A stretch of 35,248 nt of DNA from a virus, in IMG/VR virus record IMGVR_UViG_3300025131_000195, positions 1 to 35,248 of that record. One strand, 5' to 3'. Positions 3,990-24,842 of this stretch are shown here, piece by piece. The stretch's first letter is position 1. Each line of letters begins with the position of its first letter. The position numbers were made by a program, and so were the translations under genes. The notes beneath the pieces were generated by a model. That model searched no databases. It was not told where the DNA came from and saw only the letters and a list, made by a program, of their open reading frames with translations.

Positions 3990-4937
3990 CTATCCTATTG
4001 ACAACAAAGCGTCAAACGCATTATACTGCATTTGGCTTAATTTGTCTAGTGTGTCTTCTCTTCGCAGGATCTTGAAGGCGATATTTTCAGCAGAATATTC
4101 CTGGTCGGGACTGTGTAATCCGGCTTTTCTCATCTTTCTGATCCTTTCTTTTAATCTTTTGATTGATTTTAGGGCAGAGCGCGGCTTTGCATCGGCAAAC
4201 TTTTCGATCAAGTTTGTTTCCGTCTGGATTGAGTCGGCCTTCTTACGAGCGGTAGGGTAGTCAAATCTAATCTCATCAGAAGTAGGTGATGTTACCCAAT
4301 CATCTTCCATTATAGAATATATACCAGAGGAGTGTGTGACGTGGCCCACATTCTCCACGAATATCTCCACCTCGTGACCGTACATAACTATATCGTGTAG
4401 TTCGTTCCAGCGCCATCTGGCTGCATCGAAAAATGATTTAGCTAGCTCAGTGTCATCACTAATTTTTGAAAAGTCTACGACGATATGAAGATCCACATCC
4501 GAATACTTAGACCAGTTATAGTTGGCTAGGCTGCCAGTCAGCCGAATATCACTAATTTGAACGTCCTGTTCTAATCCTTCAACAAATTCATTGGCAATCT
4601 TTATCAAGCGTTTGGCGATTCTGGGATTTAACTTGCCGGTCTTCCAAAAGCGCGGATCGAGTTCCGGCTGTTTTTCAAAACTTTCAGGCTCTACCTCTTC
4701 CTCTAGACCACCGGGCGCGCCAGGAGGGGCAGAGGTATCGTTAAACTTCCGTCGTCGAAAGCTCGGGCGCTTTTTGCCTCCAGGCCAGCCACCCTTTTTC
4801 TGTGGACCTGTGTCGAGAAACCATTTTAACGATCTCTCTAAACCAGGACCGGAGCCTCGGGTGCGCTGCTTCTTGCCTTCCGTTAAACTTTTGTCGTCGT
4901 TTCTGGACTCTTCTACAAATTCTTTCCATTTTTTCAT
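3990..4937 (-). CDS. Nucleotidyltransferase-fold protein, 315 aa
   Basis: Polymerase-beta-type nucleotidyltransferases carry a GS motif followed by DxD and a third acid. Here LTGSLANYNWSKYSDVDLHI gives G135-S136 and D147-x-D149, and VEIFV at about 191 supplies a likely third acidic residue. The first ~100 residues are a basic, Gly/Pro-rich, probably disordered region. The C-terminal ~90 residues are helical and basic. The substrate could be a nucleotide, tRNA or protein; the sequence does not say. It overlaps the upstream 91-residue gene by four bases (ATGA). Its place beside tail-fibre genes suggests expression with virion genes. Confidence 0.75.
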   Translation of the reverse strand: MKKWKEFVEESRNDDKSLTEGKKQRTRGSGPGLERSLKWFLDTGPQKKGGWPGGKKRPSFRRRKFNDTSAPPGAPGGLEEEVEPESFEKQPELDPRFWKTGKLNPRIAKRLIKIANEFVEGLEQDVQISDIRLTGSLANYNWSKYSDVDLHIVVDFSKISDDTELAKSFFDAARWRWNELHDIVMYGHEVEIFVENVGHVTHSSGIYSIMEDDWVTSPTSDEIRFDYPTARKKADSIQTETNLIEKFADAKPRSALKSIKRLKERIRKMRKAGLHSPDQEYSAENIAFKILRREDTLDKLSQMQYNAFDALLSIG

Positions 4938-5221: not shown

Positions 5222-6403
5222 TTATTGCGAGCTATTTTCCACGTTAAAAGCGATCGCATTATATTTTATATCCGCCGTTGGTTCGGGATCGAATGCGACG
5301 AAGCCAGCATTTGTGAGTGTGAGGTCTGAACTCACCCAAAAATCACGCTGGCCGACAATTAGCCAAGTCCCATCATTGTCATAAGCAACATCTTTCATAT
5401 CTTTGTATACACCGTCAGCGGAACTGGTTAAGCGCGTCTCCGTCCAGGTCTCAGCATCATCGGTGCTTACCCAAACATAACCGCTATTTCCACACATTAC
5501 CCACTTGCCGGCCATATCAGTGGCTACTCCAAGCATTGGTCGATTCGCGGCTGGCGCATTTAAGAGACCCCATGTCATCGAACCCTGAGTACCAGATCCC
5601 GTTACGTGATTTTCCTTGGACTGCTGGCCTGCAATAACCCAAACGTTATTACCATAACCTCCGTTTCCTTTATTATTTGCGCCGGAACCACCGGGAGAGT
5701 ACTCCAAGTCCCAATCTCCATTATCTTCAGATCCGGTCCCCTCCACAGAAGAAAATACGGCGCCGGGATTATTCATGGCCATCACAAACATAGACGCAGC
5801 CGGGTTTCGGTTCCAAATAGGGGCTGGCCGGCCACTTCGACCGGTGCCAACGGCGTCAAAGCCCTTCCATTGAACGCACCAAGCACTACTATCTGTAATG
5901 GTCCCAGTCACATAATAGGCATATTCGCTATAGCCAACCGATGTCATCGTCCACGTAGCGAGATCATTGCTGCCGGTAGAACCAAAAGACACCCGATGGC
6001 CCACCCCGTCTAACTCGCGGCCGCCATCAGGCCTAGTGACCACCCAGTTGTCACTTCCAGATGGCACCCAAGCTGGATTGGCATCTTGTACTGCTATATA
6101 CATTGGGTTTGCAGCATTATCACGTATGAGGATCCACACTTCTTTGCCAGATGAATCATATCCCCATGCAATGTCATCATAACCGCCAGAGCCCAGATCA
6201 AGGAGGGTCCAGTTGTCGGCAACCGTAAGATCATCTGCGGTGCAGTACATTATGTGGGCGCTCTCACCCACTGCGATCGCAACGCGAGATCTCCCTGCGG
6301 CGGCAACCGTGGAGTTATCTATCTTTTCAATATTTCCCTTGGCCGTGTTATCGAGCTTGGCTATACCGGAAAGAGCAGTGTTATCAATTTTATTTACGGC
6401 CAT
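5222..6403 (-). CDS. Tail-fibre or virion-surface protein with BNR-like repeats, 393 aa
   Basis: The N-terminus has three short repeats built on KIDNT/KLDNT (residues 5-30), a pattern common at the base of phage fibre proteins. The rest is Gly/Ser/Asp/Trp-rich with repeated strand motifs such as GYVWVSTDDAETWTE and DNDGTWLIVGQRDFWVSSD, which resemble the Asp-box turns of sialidase/BNR beta-propellers. This suggests a propeller-type receptor-binding protein. It follows the 204-residue fibre-like gene directly, with GGAG nine bases before the ATG. Receptor and assembly position are unknown. Confidence 0.75.
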   Translation of the reverse strand: MAVNKIDNTALSGIAKLDNTAKGNIEKIDNSTVAAAGRSRVAIAVGESAHIMYCTADDLTVADNWTLLDLGSGGYDDIAWGYDSSGKEVWILIRDNAANPMYIAVQDANPAWVPSGSDNWVVTRPDGGRELDGVGHRVSFGSTGSNDLATWTMTSVGYSEYAYYVTGTITDSSAWCVQWKGFDAVGTGRSGRPAPIWNRNPAASMFVMAMNNPGAVFSSVEGTGSEDNGDWDLEYSPGGSGANNKGNGGYGNNVWVIAGQQSKENHVTGSGTQGSMTWGLLNAPAANRPMLGVATDMAGKWVMCGNSGYVWVSTDDAETWTETRLTSSADGVYKDMKDVAYDNDGTWLIVGQRDFWVSSDLTLTNAGFVAFDPEPTADIKYNAIAFNVENSSQ

Positions 6404-7018
6404 TTAAGACAGCTCCAATGTGTTCATGCTTGGGTTAAAGTAAATCACATTGGCTGTGGTAGTGCAATAGCCCACAATTCTAATTATATCGCCGCTCGAA
6501 TCAGGAGGAGTCATCGTAACTTTGCCGGCGTTGGCGTCATCAACGTATACGGGCATCCCTTCGTTAAATGTACCGGTAAAGTTTGAATGCATATCAAAGA
6601 ACCCGCGAATCAACATTCCATGTGTGTCGACCGTTGTGCCAAGTGCGATCGCCAATAAGGTGCCGCATGTGCCAATCGCATTGGCTTGGGCTAATTCCCA
6701 CTGACCCTCAGCATCCAAATAATATAACTTGCCTGCGGTCGTTGAGCCGCCACTAGGTCCAGCGCCAAATAGGACTACTTCGCCGCCGCCAGTGTCATCG
6801 CTATAGCCCGTAGGGTTGTGATGGACATCCAGTGTAGCTACCGGGGCAACGGTGCCAATACCTACAGCCGAAGCTGATACGTTCAGAAGTGACGTGCCCC
6901 CTGGCACCATTGAAATAGCATCTTCCTCAAAATTTATGTAGGTGGCATTACCCGTCTTGTCATCTTCATAATATATATCACCGCGTGCAACGCTCCCTGT
7001 CGTCCATTTATAACCCAT
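6404..7018 (-). CDS. Tail-fibre-like structural protein, 204 aa
   Basis: The start is the ATG at 7018, nine bases after GGAGG; an in-frame TTG at 7027 abuts the ribosome site and is rejected. The central AVGIGTVAPVATLDVH matches the GIGT..P...LDV motif recurrent in phage fibre and baseplate surface proteins. Later segments (GGGEVVLFGAGPSGGSTTAG, GMLIRGFFDM, GMPVYVDDANAGKVTMTPP, VGYCTTTANVIYFNPS) are beta-rich and look like a C-terminal trimerisation or decoration domain. It is probably co-translated with the 393-residue fibre gene, which begins immediately after its stop. Confidence 0.75.
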   Translation of the reverse strand: MGYKWTTGSVARGDIYYEDDKTGNATYINFEEDAISMVPGGTSLLNVSASAVGIGTVAPVATLDVHHNPTGYSDDTGGGEVVLFGAGPSGGSTTAGKLYYLDAEGQWELAQANAIGTCGTLLAIALGTTVDTHGMLIRGFFDMHSNFTGTFNEGMPVYVDDANAGKVTMTPPDSSGDIIRIVGYCTTTANVIYFNPSMNTLELS

Positions 7019-7023
7019 ATTAT

Positions 7024-7365
7024 TCAACCTCCATCATAAATAGTCTGCTCTCCATCTTCAAACGTAATAATTGTATGATTTGTAGGATGAGATTTAACGT
7101 GGATTTTGATGAAGTCATCAAAGGCATCAAAAAATGCGATCGATCCGCGCGGAGCGGGCGTGAGCCAATGAATAACGGTGTGCCCTGTGGCAAATGTGGC
7201 GCCCTCAATTACGACACCCTCTCCAGATATCCCAGTCTCGTCATGCTGTCGGCATACCGTGAATGTTCTGATTCCTTCCGGTGCTCGGTTACTAGGCTTT
7301 TTTGGCTTCAGGTCATCTGGCTCGACGGATCCCTCCATCGCCAGGAACACCGTATTGTCGCCCAT
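7024..7365 (-). CDS. Conserved-looking hypothetical protein, 113 aa
   Basis: The core RTFTVCRQHDETGISGEG, GVVIEGATFATGHTVIHWLT and a later IKIHVKSHP segment form a beta-rich pattern. I have seen it in small proteins from phages and actinobacteria, where the function is not known. GGAG precedes the ATG by seven bases, and the start overlaps the previous stop by one base. A basic, Pro-rich linker (LKPKKPSNRAPEG) precedes the core. A tail-associated or accessory role is possible from position alone. Confidence 0.65.
   Translation of the reverse strand: MGDNTVFLAMEGSVEPDDLKPKKPSNRAPEGIRTFTVCRQHDETGISGEGVVIEGATFATGHTVIHWLTPAPRGSIAFFDAFDDFIKIHVKSHPTNHTIITFEDGEQTIYDGG
7036..7044 (-). promoter_or_regulatory. 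ACTATTTAT motif, candidate late-promoter element
   Basis: The minus-strand nonamer lies within the last codons of the 113-residue gene, 17 bases before the ATG of the 204-residue fibre gene, the same distance as at the 1189-residue gene. The sequence also encodes residues TIYD of the 113-residue protein, so it may be coincidental. Confidence 0.25.
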
Positions 7366-7613: not shown

Positions 7614-8408
7614 CTAATTAGCTTCTATCGGCGCTATCTCCAATATAGAATCCCAATTTACGTTAAATGCGGGGACCAAAATGACAAAATCCTCAATAAT
7701 TTGGGCGCCTAGGCCAGTAAAGCCCACATCTACCGCCATTACGTGGCCGATTAGCTGGCCATCCTCCGTGAAGACGCCAGAGCCAGACGATCCTGGCCAT
7801 GCATAAGAGTGAAGATAAATATAGTGAGATTTAGAGTGGCCTACTATCTTTCCATCAAAAGTTAACGGACCCATGCTATTCGGAAAACCAGTATAGAAGA
7901 TCTTTTTGTGTATCGAGAGAGCTTCGATCCATTCCTCTTCTTCTGGAATATCTTTCTTTACGTCAACCGGTGCACGATCCTCGATTTCGACCACCTCAAT
8001 AATGGCATAGTCCTCTCGCTCGTTAACTTCGATGAATTGAACACAATCATGACTTGTATCGGCCACCATTATTATTGTGTGCTCGCAACTTCCAACAATA
8101 CCATGCTGTGTGGTAAGTATAAAGTATCTGTCATAGACAGTGACGTAAGTACCGCTAGATAAGGCAGTCCCTCCTGATTCCTCTTGATGCGACAGTATCT
8201 GCACAGAACTGCGTCGGGAAAGATCGATCGCCCTTCTTTCATTAGACGGCAACGATCGCGATATATTATCCAGTTCATAGGCTTCTGGAGGGGGGACCAC
8301 AACAGTCTCCATCTCATTGATTACAGAGAGAGTAACGACAAAGGCAATCGGGGCCACACACAGCACACCAACAAGTATTTGTTTGAATACTTTTAACGCC
8401 CTCTTCAT
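7614..8408 (-). CDS. Membrane-anchored trypsin-like serine protease, 264 aa
   Basis: Trypsin-fold proteases use a His-Asp-Ser triad. The likely residues are H102 (ILTTQHGIVG), D133 (REDYAIIEV) and S208 (WPGSSGSGVF), in the expected order and spacing. Residues 10-30 form one membrane segment after a short basic N-terminus, so the catalytic domain would sit outside the cytoplasmic membrane or in the virion. The S1 region differs from the GDSGG of digestive enzymes. A phage might use it to process virion or envelope proteins; this is inference. No clear ribosome site precedes the ATG. Confidence 0.8.
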   Translation of the reverse strand: MKRALKVFKQILVGVLCVAPIAFVVTLSVINEMETVVVPPPEAYELDNISRSLPSNERRAIDLSRRSSVQILSHQEESGGTALSSGTYVTVYDRYFILTTQHGIVGSCEHTIIMVADTSHDCVQFIEVNEREDYAIIEVVEIEDRAPVDVKKDIPEEEEWIEALSIHKKIFYTGFPNSMGPLTFDGKIVGHSKSHYIYLHSYAWPGSSGSGVFTEDGQLIGHVMAVDVGFTGLGAQIIEDFVILVPAFNVNWDSILEIAPIEAN

Positions 8409-8424: not shown

Positions 8425-11400
8425 CTAAACTTGTTTTTGATAACTTAAAAAGATCGGCAGCTCTTCTAAGCCCGATTTTTTAGCAAACCACACTAAATCT
8501 TCGTTTCCTGTGATCTTGATTCTGCCGTTTTGACCAACCGCCACATATACCGGTGCCGTTGCGCCTGACTTAATAAACTCTTTATACCGTCCTTCAAAAT
8601 CAGCCATATCTCCGCGATAATACCGGTCCATAAATGGAAACAATTCCTCTACCGGCAGCATCACGTGATAACGCATATCGGTGCTGTCCATCGGAACATC
8701 ATATACTTTAACGCTCCCCTCCATCCAGTCTTCTAGAACGCCCTGCAATTGAGGGCGCGGAGTGGGCATTGCAGGAGTATCGGGGCGCCCGACACTACCT
8801 AGTGCCGCGCCCATGCCGCCGAATCCGCCGGCACCAAAGTTACCTATACTACCCTCATCAATGTTTTGAATTGTTTCTCTCACTGTCCTAATAGTTCCTC
8901 GCGTATTGGTACGATGAATCGATGAGGCGCGCAGAACAGTGATCCCTTTGATGCGGCCCAAAGCCGGGATAAGTATACGATCGCGATACTTAACGCGGCT
9001 CGCACTTCCCAATAATTCGAATTTAATTTCTAATGTTGCTAGCGTTGCTGAGCCAGATCCCTTTACAGTGTCTCCAAGCGTTCTAACGGTTGTAACACCG
9101 TCAATACCGCGAATTTCAGTCTGCGTCTCTTGCATTTCGCCGCCTAGGTCCTTGCTAATTGACACATCTATTCGCATGCGATAAATTCGTAGATCATAGG
9201 TCTTGTCATCTTCCGCCAACAGACCCTCTATTCTTGCGATCTGATCTTCGATGCTCTCGTTGACTGGCGTCTCTTTGCTAGCCAACCCAACACCACGACG
9301 AACGCGCTCTTTCTGGACATATTCGTCCCAGTTGCGCGGCTTGCCTGTGTCTGGATCGATTGCGCCAGCCATACTGTGGCCACGGAAAGTGCGCGCTAGC
9401 ATCGGCGTTATGTATATAGCATCTGCCACAAACCGCTCAAGCAAATCCATCTGCTCCCAGTTGTCTCGTAGCCACATCGAGATAAGCATAAAACGCTCGG
9501 ACATATCGTCGCCGGCATCCGCTTGGGCTCCGTATACACTATCCATCTTCTGGAAAAAGTCAGTCACAGTATTGCTTCTTCCTAGGATATGCTTGCGTGC
9601 ATGCACCACGTTGCCCATCTCGCTCATTGGGACGAGGAGGATGTCTCGCGCAGCCTCGCGCACAATGTCTGGGTTGTCGTTGATGTGATGGAGCATCGCC
9701 AGCACGCTATCGATCTCTTCCACATTGTCATCAAAGTCAACGCGCACAAGGAATGTAAAGTCAAACGAAAGGGTTGGAACGCGCTCAAGCTCTCTTACGT
9801 CGTGTCTTATCGTGGGATAAATAATCAACTCAATGTCTTTGGCGAGTTCCATCACGGGTTTTGGCTCATACTGAGGCCCAAAGTCAAACTCCTCTTGGCC
9901 AGTCGCAGCCATTTTTGCTCGCTGCGCGGATCCGTAAGCATCACTAAGGCGGTGCGCCATCTGTGAGTTTAACGATGGGGCGCGGAGTTCGCCTCCCCCT
10001 CTAGTGTTGAGGTTGGGGAACATTCTTTGTATGAGAGAGCGCTCGGATTCTCGCTCGCCCGCAGTCAAGTAGATCATCGTCTCGGTGGGAACGGCTAAAC
10101 CTGTGGGGAGGCGGTAATGACCTTCGCCATCTCTGTCAGCGAGGAATGTGAATTGGGCGCCGGTGTCATCAGCCATGACCTTCCAATGTTTAAGCTCGTT
10201 GATCTTTTCGAGCTTCTCCAGATCTTTAACGTAGGCATTCTCGCGAATGTAGCCTTCAATCTGAAGATGTGCTGTAACAGACTTTACACGCTCGGCATAC
10301 TTCTCTTCAAACTCGTCTCGGATCTCATTAGCGAAATAGCTGTAGTCATGAACGGCGCTCGCGCCGTCAACAGTTTCGCTTCTTCGGAGTGTTGCGATTA
10401 AGTGCGCTGTCTCGGGATACTCTGCGTTGGGAAAGTCCTCGGGGGGCTCCCAATCGTCGGGTATGACACCCTGCATCATCTTCACCTCGATCTCGACGCC
10501 GTTATTGTCTTCGCCAGGAAGCAGATTAGAAACGTCATCAAGCCCTATGTCAGCAACGAAGTCGTTTTGTTCGCTGTAGGTTGTGGGGATCATCTGGAAA
10601 CTAGTGATGATGTTTCCGTCAGCATCCAGGGGCACAATGCCGGTCTTCTGGACCGCGAAATGTGGCCAACCAAGATCGATCTCTAACTTACACTCGGCGC
10701 CCATATCTACATAAATTTCGTTACCATCGTCATAGCTATCCATCCACTCCCACCACACTTGGCAATAATCCATTCCGCTGTATTCATAGTCTATGCCGTT
10801 AAGGTCGCCGGCAATCTCCTCCATTCGGTTCTCGCGACTGCCTTGGAAATTGGCGTTGGTGCGAGACTCTAGAAAATGGTTCATCTCCTCAAAATCTTCA
10901 GGACTGTCAGAATACTCGCCTTGTTCTGTCACCTCCGTCACACCCATGTTGTCTATGAACCATTCGATGTGTGACCACGTTGCTTCAGGTGGTGCGCTGT
11001 TTCCTCTGCCTTTCATTTGGGAGATAGTCTCGCCATCAAACTCAATCGTCACGTATGACTTAGACTTACCGCGCTTGCCTTCGGGCTTGCGGAGAGAGTA
11101 AAGAGTTCCTCCGCTTTGGGCGGCGCCGCAGTGTCCCATTCGCGTGCCTTCCAGGTCGCAATTGCTTGTCTCTAGATCATACCAATACGAACCATCGTCA
11201 AAAGTGTGGTATACCTGATCGGGGCTTTCTTGCTCTGCGATCTCCTCTTCGGCTTTGTTGTCTGCGCCGATCATTGTACTATGCTCGCGAAGGATCCTGA
11301 TGTTATCGGGGTGCATGTTTAAGAACGTGAACACATCATTAAAGCGGCTCTGGAACTGCTTCCACGCTTGCTCGATGGCACTGTCTAACACCTCTTGAAC

Positions 11401-11994
11401 GAACTCTACTGTCTTGCTGTTAAGCCCTAACTTGCTTAATCCCTTCACTGCCTTCTCAAAAGCTTTTCTCCATTTGCCGAGGGCATCATCTTTAATCGTT
11501 CGGTTGATACTCTGGAGTATAAACCTAGTGCGTTTGGCTTTCTCGGTTGTCCAGTTCTCGCCTTCTCTCAGTATGTTCTCAAACTGAACTTCGGGGGCGC
11601 CCTCCGTGAGATTGTGGCGGTCCATGGCAGCAAGGAACTCCTCGGGTGATCCACCAAAGGGATCCTCTTCGGCCGAACCGAAATCGACTTCGGGTTCAGG
11701 AGGATCTAAATCCTCCTGCTTCGCAAACTCTGTCCAATAGTCGAGAGCAGACAGCAGCGGCTCCATCGTATTAAACCGAAACTCTTGTATTCTGTTGCTT
11801 GGGCGCACGAATTGGTGAAGATGAGTTTTCTTCCACATATGCCCTAGCCATGTCTTTGCGCTTTCAGGCGCTTCGTGTAGCGAAGACTCGATAGCATCGG
11901 CTACATATTCGGAGAGCCCTATGTCGCGAAGACCCTCGTCTAATCTAATGTTCTCGTTTATATAACCGAACCAGTTACGTGTAGCAAAATCCAT
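8425..11994 (-). CDS. Very large multidomain phage protein with PcfJ-like GHCG segment, 1189 aa
   Basis: The largest gene of the window encodes a soluble, acidic protein. The N-terminus (GLRDIGLSEYVADAIES) is helical. At 286-343 it has MGHCG, LYSLR, VTIEFD and QMKGRGNS, spaced as in the PcfJ-like domain (HC-G, iysLR, vTIe, Q-kGk-N). A long middle region is unassigned. A Gly/Pro-rich linker (GAGGFGGMGAALG) leads to a C-terminal ~90 residues (APVYVAVGQNGRIKI, then LEELPIFLSY) that resemble a ParB-N-like fold. It lies between virion genes, so a structural or injected protein is plausible. Both domain assignments rest on motif resemblance only. The start is 17 bases after an ACTATTTAT motif. Confidence 0.75.
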   Translation of the reverse strand: MDFATRNWFGYINENIRLDEGLRDIGLSEYVADAIESSLHEAPESAKTWLGHMWKKTHLHQFVRPSNRIQEFRFNTMEPLLSALDYWTEFAKQEDLDPPEPEVDFGSAEEDPFGGSPEEFLAAMDRHNLTEGAPEVQFENILREGENWTTEKAKRTRFILQSINRTIKDDALGKWRKAFEKAVKGLSKLGLNSKTVEFVQEVLDSAIEQAWKQFQSRFNDVFTFLNMHPDNIRILREHSTMIGADNKAEEEIAEQESPDQVYHTFDDGSYWYDLETSNCDLEGTRMGHCGAAQSGGTLYSLRKPEGKRGKSKSYVTIEFDGETISQMKGRGNSAPPEATWSHIEWFIDNMGVTEVTEQGEYSDSPEDFEEMNHFLESRTNANFQGSRENRMEEIAGDLNGIDYEYSGMDYCQVWWEWMDSYDDGNEIYVDMGAECKLEIDLGWPHFAVQKTGIVPLDADGNIITSFQMIPTTYSEQNDFVADIGLDDVSNLLPGEDNNGVEIEVKMMQGVIPDDWEPPEDFPNAEYPETAHLIATLRRSETVDGASAVHDYSYFANEIRDEFEEKYAERVKSVTAHLQIEGYIRENAYVKDLEKLEKINELKHWKVMADDTGAQFTFLADRDGEGHYRLPTGLAVPTETMIYLTAGERESERSLIQRMFPNLNTRGGGELRAPSLNSQMAHRLSDAYGSAQRAKMAATGQEEFDFGPQYEPKPVMELAKDIELIIYPTIRHDVRELERVPTLSFDFTFLVRVDFDDNVEEIDSVLAMLHHINDNPDIVREAARDILLVPMSEMGNVVHARKHILGRSNTVTDFFQKMDSVYGAQADAGDDMSERFMLISMWLRDNWEQMDLLERFVADAIYITPMLARTFRGHSMAGAIDPDTGKPRNWDEYVQKERVRRGVGLASKETPVNESIEDQIARIEGLLAEDDKTYDLRIYRMRIDVSISKDLGGEMQETQTEIRGIDGVTTVRTLGDTVKGSGSATLATLEIKFELLGSASRVKYRDRILIPALGRIKGITVLRASSIHRTNTRGTIRTVRETIQNIDEGSIGNFGAGGFGGMGAALGSVGRPDTPAMPTPRPQLQGVLEDWMEGSVKVYDVPMDSTDMRYHVMLPVEELFPFMDRYYRGDMADFEGRYKEFIKSGATAPVYVAVGQNGRIKITGNEDLVWFAKKSGLEELPIFLSYQKQV

Positions 11995-12023: not shown

Positions 12024-12380
12024 CTATCTCCAAAACAGTTGGACGGCCACTATAAGCATGGATAAAAACACGCAAATCATCGTTTTAGTCGTAAACATGC
12101 TTTCGTTGAGAAAATACCACGTCAAAATAGGAAAGGTCAAATATGACATGCTAAAGATTAAAAAGCGGGGGCCCCAAACCTGCCCCATCTCTTCGTAGGC
12201 AAACCTCACACCATACAGGAAACACAAACCGGTAGGAAGTCCATATAGTACAACCGCGAAGATCGGATGTTGTTTCCACCATTCCCATACAAATTGGCTA
12301 TTGATCTGAAACCACGCCATCGTTTGACCCAGCGCAAACAAGGATAGGGCTAGCCAAAGTTTACTAGAAATTTGTAACAA
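12024..12380 (-). CDS. Small four-helix membrane protein, 118 aa, TTG start
   Basis: Four hydrophobic segments (about residues 6-22, 38-58, 70-90 and 97-115) alternate with short loops, giving an integral membrane protein of the size of EmrE/DMT-type half transporters. Family membership is only suggested by appearance (FPILTWYFLNESMF). The start is TTG at 12380 with GAGG six bases upstream, inside the 3' end of the methyltransferase-like gene, so the two overlap by 17 bases and are probably co-translated. The function could be transport, lysis timing or superinfection exclusion; none is shown. Confidence 0.65.
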   Translation of the reverse strand: MLQISSKLWLALSLFALGQTMAWFQINSQFVWEWWKQHPIFAVVLYGLPTGLCFLYGVRFAYEEMGQVWGPRFLIFSMSYLTFPILTWYFLNESMFTTKTMICVFLSMLIVAVQLFWR

Positions 12381-13131
12381 TTGTTTCCTCGCAGCTCTCT
12401 TTATCTTGTGTTGGTCTTCCGTACTTGTCGATCATTGTAATGTTAAATTTTTCGTATAGCTTATACACAGCGTTGTGGTGATTATATATCACAACCCATT
12501 TGCGATCGAGGTTCTTTAATTTGCTGTGCAATTGCCGGTGATTGACTCTAGTTTGTTCAAATCCCATATTTTTTCCCTGCTCCAATAAGTTATAGCTAAA
12601 GTTGCCCATCGGGAGCAATAGATAATCAGCTTCGTTATATTTCTCTACAGACTCAACAACCGTTGCGTTTGTTGTATAATTCAAATGAAAGTTTGCCGGC
12701 CGGAAGCTCTTTAAATAAGATAGTGAAACAGGATTGAGCTTGTCTCTATTAAAATCTCCGGAAGACAACAGGCCAGTTTCTGAACACCTATTTAGCGTGA
12801 AGAACATGGCCGATCTAACATACGGGTCTTTATATTGTGGCCAGTTTTCTTGCAAAATTTGAAAAGATTTTTCGTTTTGAAGCTTTTGAAACTGTTCCGA
12901 AACAACTATCTGATATAAGGTTTCGCAATCATTCGTTGCACAGGTCCAGAATTCATAGATCACATACCTATTTGTATGTGCATTAACAAACCGATCGTCT
13001 TCCGCAAGATTGAACTCAAGCTCGCCCGAAAAAAATACAAAGGAATTTATAACCGATCCCTTTGGAAGTATGCTTTTCAGATAAGACAAACACCCAGCAT
13101 GATCGTGAACATGTTTGATCGGAGATCTCAT
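12364..13131 (-). CDS. Dam/D12-methyltransferase-like protein lacking the DPPY motif, 255 aa
   Basis: Residues 104-128 (YVRSAMFFTLNRCSETGLLS) match the conserved central segment of D12-class N6-adenine DNA methyltransferases. The C-terminal HNAVYKLYEKFNITMIDKYG matches their closing region. The catalytic DPPY motif should lie near 168-178 but reads ADYLLLPMGNF. The SAM-binding glycine-rich motif I is also degenerate (INSFVFFSGELEF). The fold is probably kept while methylation is lost. It overlaps the membrane protein gene by 17 bases, suggesting a joint function. It could be a DNA-binding or immunity-evasion derivative. Confidence 0.7.
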   Translation of the reverse strand: MRSPIKHVHDHAGCLSYLKSILPKGSVINSFVFFSGELEFNLAEDDRFVNAHTNRYVIYEFWTCATNDCETLYQIVVSEQFQKLQNEKSFQILQENWPQYKDPYVRSAMFFTLNRCSETGLLSSGDFNRDKLNPVSLSYLKSFRPANFHLNYTTNATVVESVEKYNEADYLLLPMGNFSYNLLEQGKNMGFEQTRVNHRQLHSKLKNLDRKWVVIYNHHNAVYKLYEKFNITMIDKYGRPTQDKESCEETIVTNF

Positions 13132-13540: not shown

Positions 13541-13831
13541 TTATCCTCTTAGTAGTTGTTTGCCTTTATTTAGAGTGCTCTCTATTGTTTCTGGTGAACC
13601 AACGACAACAATCTCTGTGCCCGACTGGCCTCGGTTAATTGTCAGTTTAGAAAACTGATGAGCGTTATCAAGACCAGTCGCGACCTTTCCTCTTTCATTC
13701 AATTCCTTCATTCTTTTTTCTTCGCGAATCATAATAACGTGCTCAGGATTCACAAATATTTCTCGTAACGAGTAGTGCTTGTTAGTTGTTACAGCGCCAT
13801 TGTTACACACTTCTGTAAGTTTAACGAGCAT
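13541..13831 (-). CDS. Small beta-rich protein, 96 aa, possibly FlbD-like
   Basis: The sequence MLVKLTEVCNNGAVTTNKHY leads to SLREIFVNPEHVIMIREEKR. A central helical spacer and a GTEIVVVGSPETIESTLNKG ending follow. The KLTEV...NPEHVI...TIEE-like order is reminiscent of FlbD-type small proteins seen in flagellar operons and phages; this is only a resemblance. I prefer the ATG at 13831, five bases after AGG, over a GTG six bases upstream. It overlaps the preceding gene by 11 bases. Confidence 0.65.
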   Translation of the reverse strand: MLVKLTEVCNNGAVTTNKHYSLREIFVNPEHVIMIREEKRMKELNERGKVATGLDNAHQFSKLTINRGQSGTEIVVVGSPETIESTLNKGKQLLRG

Positions 13832-15704: not shown

Positions 15705-17522
15705 TTATTCTTCAGTAAAGGAGCCATAATCCACCTGGGAGCCTCCCATGGCCTGTGGGCGCTCGGGATCTTCGGCCGCCTCCTTCATGCCGCCGATTGA
15801 TGCGTCAACTGTTCGTTTAAGCTCGGAAGCATTTTGTACGGCCTTGACGCCGGCGGCGTCTTTTCTCTTATAGTCGCGCTTATTACATTTCACCGGCTCT
15901 ACGTCTTCAGCGCCCGTACCACAATCAGTCAAGAAAAATCTTCCAATATTTTCAGACAATTCGGCCATGGCGTTGAACATTTTCGTCATGTCCTCGCCAA
16001 TGTTTTGAGCACCTGCTTTAAAAGATTTGGAAACAGTGTAGTCGTTGACGCTTAAAGTACCAATTGTATTGGCCCTTTTCGTATAATACACTGGACTAAT
16101 GGTAAATTGTTCTCGGTTCTTGAATCCGGGTGGGCCGTACCTGACTGTTTCCATTGTAGTTTTGCCCTTCTTCACCACTTCTTCTTCTTTCGTCTGCGTG
16201 ACGAGCTTCCAAAAATTGGCAGGATCTGTAGCAGCGAGCTTCATCCAGTAGGCTTGTTCCTCCTCATTTCCCCATATTAGTTCGCGCTCCTTATTATTGG
16301 CGCCTCCAATCGTCAACTCAAAATTTGATGCAACTTTAAAGCCACCGACGCCACCAGGAACCGTTTTAGAAATATTTGCCGACCAGCCTACATTCAGGTC
16401 AAGAGGTTCGCCCTCTACAGGAGGTGCGCCGGCGATTAACAGGCCCAGATCCGAGTCAAAGGCACCCGGATCTGGGATCCAGAGGCCTCTCAGAGGGTGA
16501 TCTTTTCTCACTCTGGGAATCTTGGCTATTCTTACCCAAGTTGGCACGGCGGTGCCTCGCGCGATCTTTCCCGTCCTAAGCCATAAGTAATTACCGTCTG
16601 GCATGATCGGAGGGAACTGTATGCCAGTCCGTTCGTCTGGCATCGTCTCGGCGGGGCCCCTTCTTAGCCAAGTCAATTTCTCATTTTTAGCTGGGGTGAA
16701 TTTCACGGGTACAAGTTCAATTTTCTCTTCCCAGGTCTCATGACCAACCCAATCAAAAAAGCTTTCATGTGTAATATCAAACTCATAAAAAGTTACTGCG
16801 CTAACCTTGCTACCTCTTTTTCCTTTTGACATGGACTTGATTGCGACAACATAGCGCATATTAGCCTCTGCGCCATAATTTGCAAAATGCATCGCAAGGT
16901 CGTTAAAGCTGCCCTCCACGGTTCCTTTCTGGCGCAGAACCTTGAGGCTGACCGGGGAGTTCTCTTGTCCTGCGATATTGACTCTGATGTCTGCGATGTC
17001 ATGCTCTCCCGTGGGAATCTGGCGGGATTGCCATGTCGCACCGGAACCAAACAAAGAGGCCATGAGAGGCTCCCAAAGAAACCCGGCCACAGAGGGGTTA
17101 AACTCTCTAATCACAAATATAAACTGATCCAAAAACATAAGATAGGAAAGCGTTTGAGCAACCGGCAATCCTTCCATAGATTTTTCGGGGTTTGCAAAGA
17201 AGTCAGTTATAGCTTTTAATTTGAGAGCGATCTGACTTTGCGAACCATCGGATTCGGCTAGGCCTATCTTAGACATCCATTGCCTGAACAACGAAGAGTC
17301 CTCTGTGCTTGGCTTCTGTCCAACAGAAATTTCTGTAGGCACCAGCGGAGGCAGTCGAAGAGCACGACCGCGCCTTCTACTATCTTCTGTTAATAGTGAT
17401 AACTTGCTTGGATCAAAGGAGTTCATCGCCTCTTGTATTATGCCGATCAAAAGATCTGGGGTTACAATCACCTCTTGCTTCTTTTTGTATTCTTCTTTTA
17501 GTATATTTTTTAAGTCAGACAT
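15705..17522 (-). CDS. Large phage protein with a nuclease-like patch, 605 aa
   Basis: The start is the ATG at 17522, six bases after AGGG; a GTG four codons earlier overlaps the ribosome site. Residues about 150-220 (FLWEPLMASLFG, GEHDIADIRV, SPVSLKVLRQ, TVEGSFNDLAMHF, then YVVAIKSMSKG and YEFDIT) show an acid-D-SLK arrangement like the PD-(D/E)xK nuclease core (D175/D178 and K194). Similar proteins occur in marine T4-like phages, from memory. The C-terminus (SIGGMKEAAEDPERPQAMGG) looks disordered. It follows the ClpP-like gene and may be a virion or packaging protein. Nuclease activity is inference. Confidence 0.7.
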   Translation of the reverse strand: MSDLKNILKEEYKKKQEVIVTPDLLIGIIQEAMNSFDPSKLSLLTEDSRRRGRALRLPPLVPTEISVGQKPSTEDSSLFRQWMSKIGLAESDGSQSQIALKLKAITDFFANPEKSMEGLPVAQTLSYLMFLDQFIFVIREFNPSVAGFLWEPLMASLFGSGATWQSRQIPTGEHDIADIRVNIAGQENSPVSLKVLRQKGTVEGSFNDLAMHFANYGAEANMRYVVAIKSMSKGKRGSKVSAVTFYEFDITHESFFDWVGHETWEEKIELVPVKFTPAKNEKLTWLRRGPAETMPDERTGIQFPPIMPDGNYLWLRTGKIARGTAVPTWVRIAKIPRVRKDHPLRGLWIPDPGAFDSDLGLLIAGAPPVEGEPLDLNVGWSANISKTVPGGVGGFKVASNFELTIGGANNKERELIWGNEEEQAYWMKLAATDPANFWKLVTQTKEEEVVKKGKTTMETVRYGPPGFKNREQFTISPVYYTKRANTIGTLSVNDYTVSKSFKAGAQNIGEDMTKMFNAMAELSENIGRFFLTDCGTGAEDVEPVKCNKRDYKRKDAAGVKAVQNASELKRTVDASIGGMKEAAEDPERPQAMGGSQVDYGSFTEE

Positions 17523-17530
17523 TTGTTCCC

Positions 17531-18160
17531 TCACACAATAATATCAGCAATACCAAATTTAACTGCTTCCTCTGCTGATAAATAGACATTTACATTGCGA
17601 TTAAGCATTTCTTTTATATCAGATTTCGTCATATTTGTTTCCGCTACCAAACATTTCGTGTACATTTTTTGTAGATCGGCAATTGCTTCAAGCTCATTTG
17701 TCAAGTCTTGAAGGTTCCCGTGATTACCTGCTGCTACTGAATGTATCATAATCCTGCAGTTCTTTGCAATTCTTCTTTTTCCTTTTGTGCCGGCCGCGAG
17801 CAGCAGCACACCGGCAGACATTACTTTGCCTAGGCCAAGTGTATGAATCTCGCTTTCCTGTCTCGTAAAGCGCATTACATCATATAGCGCAAACATATCA
17901 TCAGCACTACCACCATAGGTCGAAAGGTAAAAATCAATGGGGCGCCTCTTCTCCATATCCTGCTCCATCTTGTTTATCTCATTTAAATAAAGCATCGCGT
18001 GAATAACTTCCGCAACCTTTTCTTCGTGAATATCACAAAACATCCCAATCGTTCTCAAGTCGGGCTCGGACCGACCCTCCAGGGTGCCGGCATCTACTAG
18101 TAAGATTTTTTGCTCTTCCTGCTCGGAAGATGTGATTTTGTCTAAGAGTTTTTTAATCAT
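17531..18160 (-). CDS. ClpP-like serine peptidase, 209 aa, altered triad
   Basis: The ClpP/crotonase-fold peptidase core is clear: YLSTYGGSADDMFALYDVM (oxyanion and dimer helix), GLGKVMSAGVLLLAAG with S115, and RIMIHSVAAG with H140. In ClpP the triad Asp sits just before the FLSA/YLSA motif; here the residue at that place is N191 (NVNVYLSAEEA). The ending KFGIADIIV is typical. Lying between an acidic putative scaffold gene and large virion genes, it could be a prohead or assembly protease rather than a ClpX partner. It overlaps the membrane protein gene upstream by eight bases. Confidence 0.85.
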   Translation of the reverse strand: MIKKLLDKITSSEQEEQKILLVDAGTLEGRSEPDLRTIGMFCDIHEEKVAEVIHAMLYLNEINKMEQDMEKRRPIDFYLSTYGGSADDMFALYDVMRFTRQESEIHTLGLGKVMSAGVLLLAAGTKGKRRIAKNCRIMIHSVAAGNHGNLQDLTNELEAIADLQKMYTKCLVAETNMTKSDIKEMLNRNVNVYLSAEEAVKFGIADIIV

Positions 18161-24233: not shown

Positions 24234-24842
24234 TTATTTAAAATCAAATTCAACTTTTACGCCAATCTTCATCTCGGGAATCTTGAGCTTATTCGCTAGC
24301 TTGTGGCGGCGGCATTCTTTGGCGTCTAGAAACCAATCCGCATGTCCCTTCTCGTGAACAATGTCCAGAAAATAGTTCTCTTCATGTCCACAGTTCGCAG
24401 CCATCATCTTATAGACCTTCTGGTTTAGCCTATCAACTTCTTTGGCGTCAGCTTTAATTTCCTCAACTTTGCCCCAGCCCATTGAACTAACATCGTGAAT
24501 CATAACAGTGGCGTCTGGATCCATATAGCGTCGGCCTTCGACACCAAAGCTAAACAAGATAGCACCGCACGACATGGCTTTTCCTTGAACAATCGTAGCA
24601 ACGGGGACGCGAGAGTGCTGAATATCAGAAATCATAGACATTAGACTGTATACCTGACCTCCGTAGCTATCAATTATAACCGGTACGACGGGCTGGCCTG
24701 TGTTCTGGGCTTTCATTATCTCTTTTGAGAATTCTTTTGCTGCGCTCTCATCAAACTTATTGACTCGAATAACTACGGGAAGATTCTCGCTTCTGAATTT
24801 TACCTCCTTTAAAAGAGGGCTTGGTGTATATATAATGTTCAT
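24234..24842 (-). CDS. ClpP-like serine peptidase with intact triad, 202 aa
   Basis: ClpP-type peptidases degrade unfolded or tagged proteins in ring complexes. Here PVVPVIIDSYGGQVYSLMSM forms the oxyanion/dimer region, QGKAMSCGAILFSFG carries S91, ATVMIHDVSSMGWGK carries H116, and HADWFLDAKEC supplies D149 at the expected FLSA-like motif. The C-terminus is basic and lacks the usual IGF-loop extension. It differs from the paralogue at 17531, which has Asn at the Asp position. It follows Pol III alpha by three bases, so its unit is replication rather than head genes. Confidence 0.85.
   Translation of the reverse strand: MNIIYTPSPLLKEVKFRSENLPVVIRVNKFDESAAKEFSKEIMKAQNTGQPVVPVIIDSYGGQVYSLMSMISDIQHSRVPVATIVQGKAMSCGAILFSFGVEGRRYMDPDATVMIHDVSSMGWGKVEEIKADAKEVDRLNQKVYKMMAANCGHEENYFLDIVHEKGHADWFLDAKECRRHKLANKLKIPEMKIGVKVEFDFK

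Follow-up and report, generated by a model that had tools for sequence, protein, structure and literature searches.

Phage T4 carries internal proteins, among them IPII, IPIII and Alt, that bear a capsid-targeting sequence (CTS), are processed by the gp21 protease and are ejected. IPII and IPIII start with MKTYQEFIAE, in which residues 4 and 7 are reported to serve targeting and residues 8 and 10 processing (PMC9026906). T4 also packages and delivers CTS fusions, including one to beta-galactosidase (PMC9026906), so cargo size is no bar in principle. The ejection proteins of phages SPN3US and phiKZ are likewise head-internal, and several are cut after a glutamate by a prohead protease (PMC5694885); their propeptides are mostly longer and their sites are of the A-x-E type. 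Phage proteins with a PcfJ-like domain (PF14284) are, like the CTS-tagged internal proteins, an already known kind, although we found no published function for PcfJ-like domains in the open PMC literature. Here we describe a giant open reading frame (ORF) that joins features of both. It lies in IMG/VR virus record IMGVR_UViG_3300025131_000195, analysed over its 35,248 nucleotides (hereafter, the window).

We propose, with a probability of about 0.58, that the giant protein is head-packed, protease-trimmed and probably ejected cargo of a T4-type marine phage and carries an exchangeable effector domain. That it is packaged, cleaved and ejected and that it acts on the host is inferred by analogy with T4. 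The first ~14 residues would act as a CTS that recruits the protein into the prohead core, and a gp21-type prohead protease would then cut on the C-terminal side of a glutamate, either E14 or E20. What is left, a protein of ~132 kDa, would stay alongside the DNA inside the head until ejection into the host. A constant chassis would be formed by the C-terminal part, with its ferredoxin-like and ParB/sulfiredoxin (Srx)-like regions. The N-terminal part would carry the exchangeable effector (PcfJ-like in the window and an apparently unrelated domain in other occupants of the same gene slot), acting on the host and swapped under host pressure. If so, the N-terminal tag would provide a sequence rule for listing the proteins that an uncultured marine phage brings into its host, a list that otherwise comes from virion proteomics, and PcfJ-like domains would gain a testable site of action, the newly infected cell.

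A capsid-targeting-like start on a giant protein

The giant ORF (8425..11994) is read on the minus strand, from 11994 to 8425; frame 1 of the plus strand has stops throughout. It starts with ATG and encodes 1189 residues (135 kDa, pI 4.7) ending in PVYVAVGQNGRIKITGNEDLVWFAKKSGLEELPIFLSYQKQV. The initial annotation had described a 1189-residue chain with four motifs, all of which are present at the residues claimed (MGHCG at 286–290, LYSLR at 298–302, VTIE at 315–318 and QMKGRGNS at 326–333). We collected relatives from IMG/VR with the whole protein (3 loci), an alignment (12 loci, 3 of them shared with the first fetch) and the C-terminal 260 residues (23 loci), none of which used GHCG as a pattern, and drew from them the 19 rows of alignment A2. 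Patterns from the GHCG domain then gave 119 relatives, 80 of which were retained and joined by one from a bacterial metagenome-assembled genome (MAG), for a larger set of 81 loci that overlap partly with the first set and with one another. The reading frame is kept in the 18 relatives of A2 (32–85% identity), and none of the 19 rows departs from H288 or C289; the ORF is therefore not a product of chance. Complete copies in the larger set (57) range from 960 to 1494 residues. The MAG-borne relative sits on an 8.5-kb contig of an Opitutia MAG and may be misbinned.

Residues 1–14 (MDFATRNWFGYINE; 11953..11994, minus strand) resemble a CTS. In comparison with T4, residues 8–14 (W8-x-x-Y11-I12-x-E14) have the residue classes and spacing of Y4-x-x-F7-I8-x-E10 in IPII and IPIII, the common pattern being aromatic-x-x-aromatic-aliphatic-x-E ([ILV] at the aliphatic position). 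W8 and F9 are present in 19/19 rows of A2, 11 of which were fetched via C-terminal patterns only. The likeness to T4 extends to a phage collinear with the window, G001 (203 kb), which has a T4-type gene set: terminase, a Peptidase_S77 prohead protease of the gp21 type (E 3e-30), the capsid protein Gp23 (1e-71), portal, sheath and baseplate. The window, as a 35-kb fragment, has no recognised head gene. From these sequence comparisons, the giant's phage appears to be a marine T4-type phage. The giant differs from the T4 proteins in exceeding IPIII and IPII in length 6- to 12-fold, in having several domains and in carrying the motif at 8–14 rather than 4–10.

The same start recurs in other proteins of these phages. 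Eight ORFs of G001 have MKL[LI][LM]E[NH]W..[FY][LIV].E near their start, and the giant's motif occupies the same place as in MKLLLENWRxFLNE. We counted W-x-x-[FY]-[LIVM]-x-E in the first 30 residues of ORFs (N-terminal) and in the rest (internal). In G001, G002 (196 kb, also collinear) and the window pooled, it occurred at 18 of 15,870 N-terminal positions versus 1 of 118,569 internal ones (Fisher p 3e-16). Separately, the counts were 11/7,200 versus 0/55,596 in G001, 5/7,200 versus 1/53,336 in G002 and 2/1,470 versus 0/9,637 in the window. A looser motif that admits W, Y or F at the first position gave 11 N-terminal versus 2 internal occurrences in G001 and 2 versus 0 in the window. Bacterial ORFs had the looser motif at 0/6,810 N-terminal and 6/40,466 internal positions, and 20 kb of T4 at 2/1,200 (IPII and IPIII) versus 1/4,570. 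We found no description of a genome-wide N-terminal tag in phages of the giant's group in the open PMC literature. The initial annotation had suggested, without noting this start, that the giant might be injected with the DNA; the T4-type, capsid-targeting-like N-terminus makes that more likely.

Residues 16–21 (IRLDEG; 11932..11949, minus strand) contain a candidate gp21-type cleavage site after E20, in an L-x-E-G context. E20 and G21 are invariant in 19/19 rows of A2, and the structural model has a low-confidence break at residues 15–18. E14 is the other candidate site. At N-termini, L-x-E-G is enriched in G001 (9/7,200 versus 14/56,316, p 6e-4), not enriched in G002 (3/7,200 versus 26/54,056, p 0.68) and without clear enrichment in the window (3/1,470 versus 6/9,784, p 0.10). 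Because the enrichment is confined to G001, the proposed cleavage between E20 and G21 draws on family conservation only.

The window encodes a second tagged protein, a nucleotidyltransferase (3990..4937, minus strand; NTP_transf_2, E 3e-5, above cut-off) that starts with MKKWKEFVEE, has a later LTEG and, judged from its sequence, is a candidate for a second head cargo. Its homologue in G001 (189895–190863) matches NTP_transf_2 and SidM_N below cut-off. Further tagged ORFs of G001 were noted at 12058–12513 and 18256–18978 of L040, 1498–2109 of L041 and 10930–11892 of L045, and those of G002 at 66996–67592 and 77196–77651. One tagged protein is a Nudix hydrolase (Pfam E 1.8e-17 in G001; the G002 copy was recognised by eye). 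Tagged HAD-like ORFs and one ADP-ribosyltransferase-like ORF were named by eye only, those of G001 having no Pfam match, and one tagged ORF has a DGHHR motif of ParB/Srx-like type (ParBc_2, E 0.058, below cut-off).

The PcfJ-like domain and its exchange within a fixed slot

The initial annotation had assigned the GHCG segment to a PcfJ-like domain, and our comparisons support this assignment: residues 255–380 (10855..11232, minus strand) are a divergent relative of PcfJ. As a single sequence, the excised segment scored 14.4 bits against PF14284 (E 0.034), under the 25-bit gathering score, and the whole giant protein had no match to this profile at E<=1. Among segments from five relatives, only that of L022 matched (16.7 bits, E 0.0065), and neither the other four nor gp31 of Salicola phage SCTP-2 did. 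Scans of whole records placed PF14284 in the giant-family gene of G001 (15.7 bits, E 0.0013) and of G002 (13.9 bits, E 0.0045) and nowhere in G004 (same subtype), G003 (which has the alternative domain described below) or the MAG genome with L142. The relationship emerges when alignments are compared. With hhalign, the 18 rows of alignment A3 matched 19 bacterial PF14284 proteins with a score of 56.2 and a probability of 95.8, against 9.0 for the reversed alignment, at most 17.4 for 60 column-shuffles and a probability of 0.2 for an unrelated alignment (A4). The bacterial proteins came from above-cut-off loci in 21 of 288 genomes of one phylum, two truncated sequences having been dropped. In the aligned register, the HC motif coincides with MGHCG, the I/SLR strand with SLRK and the Q..G..N motif with QMKGRGNSAPPE.

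Structure comparison agrees with the profiles. A model of residues 145–405 (pLDDT, the predicted local distance difference test, 88) had three matches in BFVD at E<=0.001. One was A0A248SJ20 (735 residues, 1.4e-6); the other two carry the name "PcfJ-like protein", with three further entries of that name among the top nine (E 0.012–0.035). A0A248SJ20 is presumably SCTP-2 gp31, which has the same length. The excised segment weakly matches gp31 (E 0.04), in which GHCG and the preceding Cys are conserved and no clear N-terminal tag is present.

MGHCG (residues 286–290; 11125..11139, minus strand) includes H288 and C289, whose conservation the initial annotation had made a check on its assignment. 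Both are invariant within the subtype, as are C279, E282, R285, S300–R302, Q326, K328–R330, N332 and the N-terminal W8/F9 (all 19/19 in A2). The core [HN]C...SLR...TIE...Q..G..N is thus present, with H288, C289, S300, L301, R302, Q326, G329 and N332 found in every A2 row. The larger set encodes RMxHCG in 81/81 loci, in part by construction because the fetch pattern and the filter contained the motif. Bacterial PcfJ proteins have the Cys in 19/19 sequences and the His in 11/19 (Asn in 8/19), and their later motifs vary. The giant is therefore like PF14284 proteins (the phage PcfJ-like entries of 861–915 residues and SCTP-2 gp31) in its EGxRMxHC...SLR...TIE...QxKGxxN core and its structural match. 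It is unlike them in scoring below the gathering threshold, in having HCG where bacteria mostly have HCV or NCV and in having a capsid-type tag before the domain and a conserved C-terminal chassis after it.

The fold of the PcfJ-like domain may be of the GNAT type, a resemblance of modelled topology that we treat as a lead and not a finding. Foldseek gave no PDB match for the domain model at E<=0.001. Among 50 VIA-align rows, 39 fell on the PcfJ-like domain, mostly to GNAT/MYST acetyltransferases (judged by title in part) with Z of 5.5–6.7, a range that lies within what VIA-align itself grades as ambiguous (Z <8); the remaining 11 rows were helical and fell on the N-terminal part. A NAT_SF protein matched the domain model in BFVD at E 0.028. 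The acetyl-CoA motif is [QR]xxGx[GA]; the giant has Q326MKGRG331, and family members have S, Y, A, N or G as the sixth residue. Sequence comparison did not support membership of the GNAT family: alignment A5 (58 of the 64 domain sequences that remained from 82 after a 93% identity and length filter) scored 15.7 against 23 Acetyltransf_1 (PF00583) proteins, within the range of 30 shuffles (maximum 19.0).

These features allow a more far-reaching reading, which we regard as a long shot: that the tag is a cargo code for a head-packed set, that the giant is the member with an exchangeable warhead and that its PcfJ-like domain, GNAT-like in fold, is an enzyme with the conserved Cys at its active site. 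The set would comprise the giant, the Nudix hydrolase, the nucleotidyltransferase, the ParB/Srx-like protein and others in many uncultured marine T4-type phages, and the PcfJ-like enzyme would modify a host target as the DNA enters. Plasmid PcfJ proteins would then be the same kind of enzyme.

The domain in the N-terminal part of the giant is exchanged in some relatives. The 23 loci fetched with the C-terminus comprise 13 with the GHCG domain, 7 with a different Cys/His domain (SCH) and 3 that are too short to type (L016, L026 and L036). The SCH type includes L027, L029, L031–L034 and, with a variant motif, L030; L031, L033 and L034 were typed by equal length, coordinates and the missing GHC. 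Near-identical copies, judged by length, coordinates and scores (L029/L031, L032/L033/L034 and L022/L023), reduce these counts to about 4 SCH versus 12 GHCG. SCH proteins L027, L029 and L032 are of a long subtype with the motif RMSDIxxI[RT]SCHxEG...CA..E[SA]RGHG.[VI]AY. SCH genes stand where the giant gene stands in the window, flanked by the membrane protein on one side and the trypsin-like protease on the other (the L030 fragment has the downstream side only). In the three that were read (L027, L029 and L032), the start keeps W-F-x-[YF]-L-x-E (WFRYLHE, WFKFLQE and WFKYLRE), and the tails of the SCH proteins are 41–48% identical to that of the window's giant. Delivered effectors would be expected to show this pattern, in which the N-terminal domain is swapped at a constant gene position while the start motif and the tail persist. 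Neither the fixed-slot exchange nor the combination of tag and PcfJ-like domain was found in the open PMC literature. The idea that SCH is a diverged PcfJ domain found no support (hhalign probabilities of 0.1–1.1 with the three sequences L027, L029 and L032), though with an alignment of three sequences a distant kinship may exist.

The exchange also bears on the main rival explanation, a structural component of the prohead core that would be targeted in the same way, act in assembly or size control and be degraded or retained rather than ejected. We consider this role unlikely. T4 core proteins are gp21 substrates as well (PMC9958956), two tagged ORFs flank the prohead protease gene of G001 (122477 and 123980) and the giant gene keeps a fixed slot, all of which would suit a core component. 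Host-facing cargo better fits the exchange of a whole N-terminal domain and the divergence of the giant, which is 35% identical to its G001 copy, against 80–84% for the replication proteins DnaB, RNR and PolC, as expected of a fast-evolving host-facing protein. The PcfJ-like domain is moreover predicted to be folded, unlike a core peptide bound for degradation.

Several observations weigh against head-packed cargo. We spotted the motif in G001 before counting it, though its form derives from T4; G002, the cleaner test, has 5 N-terminal W-motif hits only, and with the looser motif its 5 N-terminal hits compare with 8 internal ones (still 4.6-fold per position). The counts used the longest non-overlapping ORFs instead of proper gene calls, and W-F belonged to one fetch pattern (the alignment-based one) for part of the A2 rows. 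The giant of G001 has N at position 14, followed by an LTEG site, and is therefore not among the 11 N-terminal hits of that genome; in the larger set, E occupies position 14 in 70 of 82 sequences, with 2 gaps. Other fast-evolving neighbours (the 609-residue ORF and an acidic ORF) lack the W motif. The T4 internal proteins have 95–193 residues, which makes a 132-kDa cargo unusual, and the giant gene is distant from those for the head (in G001, about 40–110 kb from the recognised head and tail genes).

The remainder of the giant protein

Outside the PcfJ-like domain, the initial annotation had left ~750 residues unassigned and had proposed a ParB-N-like C-terminus. Part of this gap can now be filled. 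A predicted ferredoxin-like domain occupies approximately residues 933–1024 (8923..9198, minus strand; VIA-align and Foldseek), with 935–1023 newly assigned and VIA-align rows that cover 931–1031 at Z up to 10.1. The last ~100 residues probably adopt a ParB/sulfiredoxin-like fold (residues 1083–1189; 8428..8748, minus strand; Foldseek and hhalign). An alpha/beta region at ~400–905 (9280..10797, minus strand; model and alignment), with weak similarity between the two subtypes, is still without assignment. Residues 21–250 (11245..11934, minus strand; AlphaFold model and alignment) are mostly helical, with a variable insert at ~99–148.

For the C-terminus, the proposed fold resemblance is likely, and the sequence similarity is weak. 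Foldseek with the full-length model returned a ParB (7bm8_A, E 0.095) and a sulfiredoxin (6ky4, E 0.14), each with a probability of 1.00; Foldseek gives no aligned model range for them, and our placement of both rows at the C-terminal ~100 residues follows the ParB_N sequence comparison, which aligns there. In that comparison, hhalign placed the C-terminus on 20 ParB_N (PF02195) proteins in the expected register, including the PVYVAVG..GNED..AKK.GLEELPIF segment, with a weak score of 23.4 and a probability of 19.5% (40 shuffles at most 17.2; reversed alignment 13.0). Unlike ParB_N, the giant lacks the basic GxRR/HR signature, which is absent in 59/59 C-terminally complete members and replaced by GNED (40), GGED (11), GSED (5), GGID (2) or HGID (1). 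We therefore describe the region as ParB/Srx-like and do not file it as ParB.

The full-length AlphaFold model has a pLDDT of 73.5 and a predicted template modelling score (pTM) of 0.40, a value at which the arrangement of the domains is unreliable. In searches with the whole protein, there was no usable match in Pfam, PHROGs, PDB sequences or INPHARED (tblastn). VIA-align with the full model gave no matches for residues 400–905, which says little because ferredoxin-like rows filled the list.

Gene neighbourhood in collinear phages

The gene order around the giant is conserved. Searching the window's proteins against the 81 loci by tblastn, with many missing neighbours attributable to fragment ends, we found upstream of the giant GroEL (79 loci), the genes at 13541 (79), 13135 (66) and 12364 (78) and the small membrane protein (77), and past it the trypsin-like protease (59), the gene at 7024 (58) and the nucleotidyltransferase (43). 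No locus was out of order (0/81, the loci overlapping in part). The immediate upstream neighbour encodes 118 residues (12024..12380, minus strand; 77/81 loci) and is a membrane protein by eye. The downstream neighbour is a trypsin-like protease with a hydrophobic N-terminus (7614..8408, minus strand; Trypsin_2, E 4.6e-9), found in 56/56 loci whose complete giant is followed by at least 900 nucleotides. The nucleotidyltransferase is present in 40/48 loci that reach at least 3,000 nucleotides past a complete giant.

The initial annotation had placed the giant in a block of virion genes, which the neighbours do not bear out: these are genes for replication, nucleotide metabolism, chaperones and proteases. 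GroEL and ClpP, together with PolC, RNR and DnaB (the last three named by eye, with collinear homologues in G001 and G002), would suit an enzyme for host takeover or DNA metabolism that is made in the infected cell and whose N-terminal motif is a coincidental helix. This explanation seems quite unlikely, since the motif is kept in the SCH proteins, where the adjacent domain differs, and dissimilar proteins of the same genomes carry it at the same position, 8–14. A tail or baseplate protein, as a virion-gene setting would imply, deserves hardly any credence. ORFs at 5222–7027 resemble structural repeat proteins by eye, and one of them (6404–7027) matches phrog_12121 (function unknown) at E 5e-4 and reaches no better than E 0.083 against a head-decoration family. 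The giant itself has no tail-family match in Pfam or PHROGs, and in G001 the baseplate, terminase, portal, protease, capsid and sheath genes lie at 75–143 kb and the giant at 183 kb.

Other genes of the window also have recognisable products. The phage GroEL (14050–15639; Cpn60_TCP1, E 4.5e-63) is accompanied by two different ClpP-like proteins (17531–18160, CLP_protease, E 3e-33; 24234–24842, by eye). The 609-residue protein between GroEL and the first ClpP (15705–17534) evolves fast, with 26% identity over 294 residues to its G001 copy; it has no Pfam or PHROGs match and resembles a PD-(D/E)xK-type core by eye. A 113-residue protein (7024–7365) seems to be under constraint: it is 85–90% identical in G001 and G002, where its neighbours are far less conserved.

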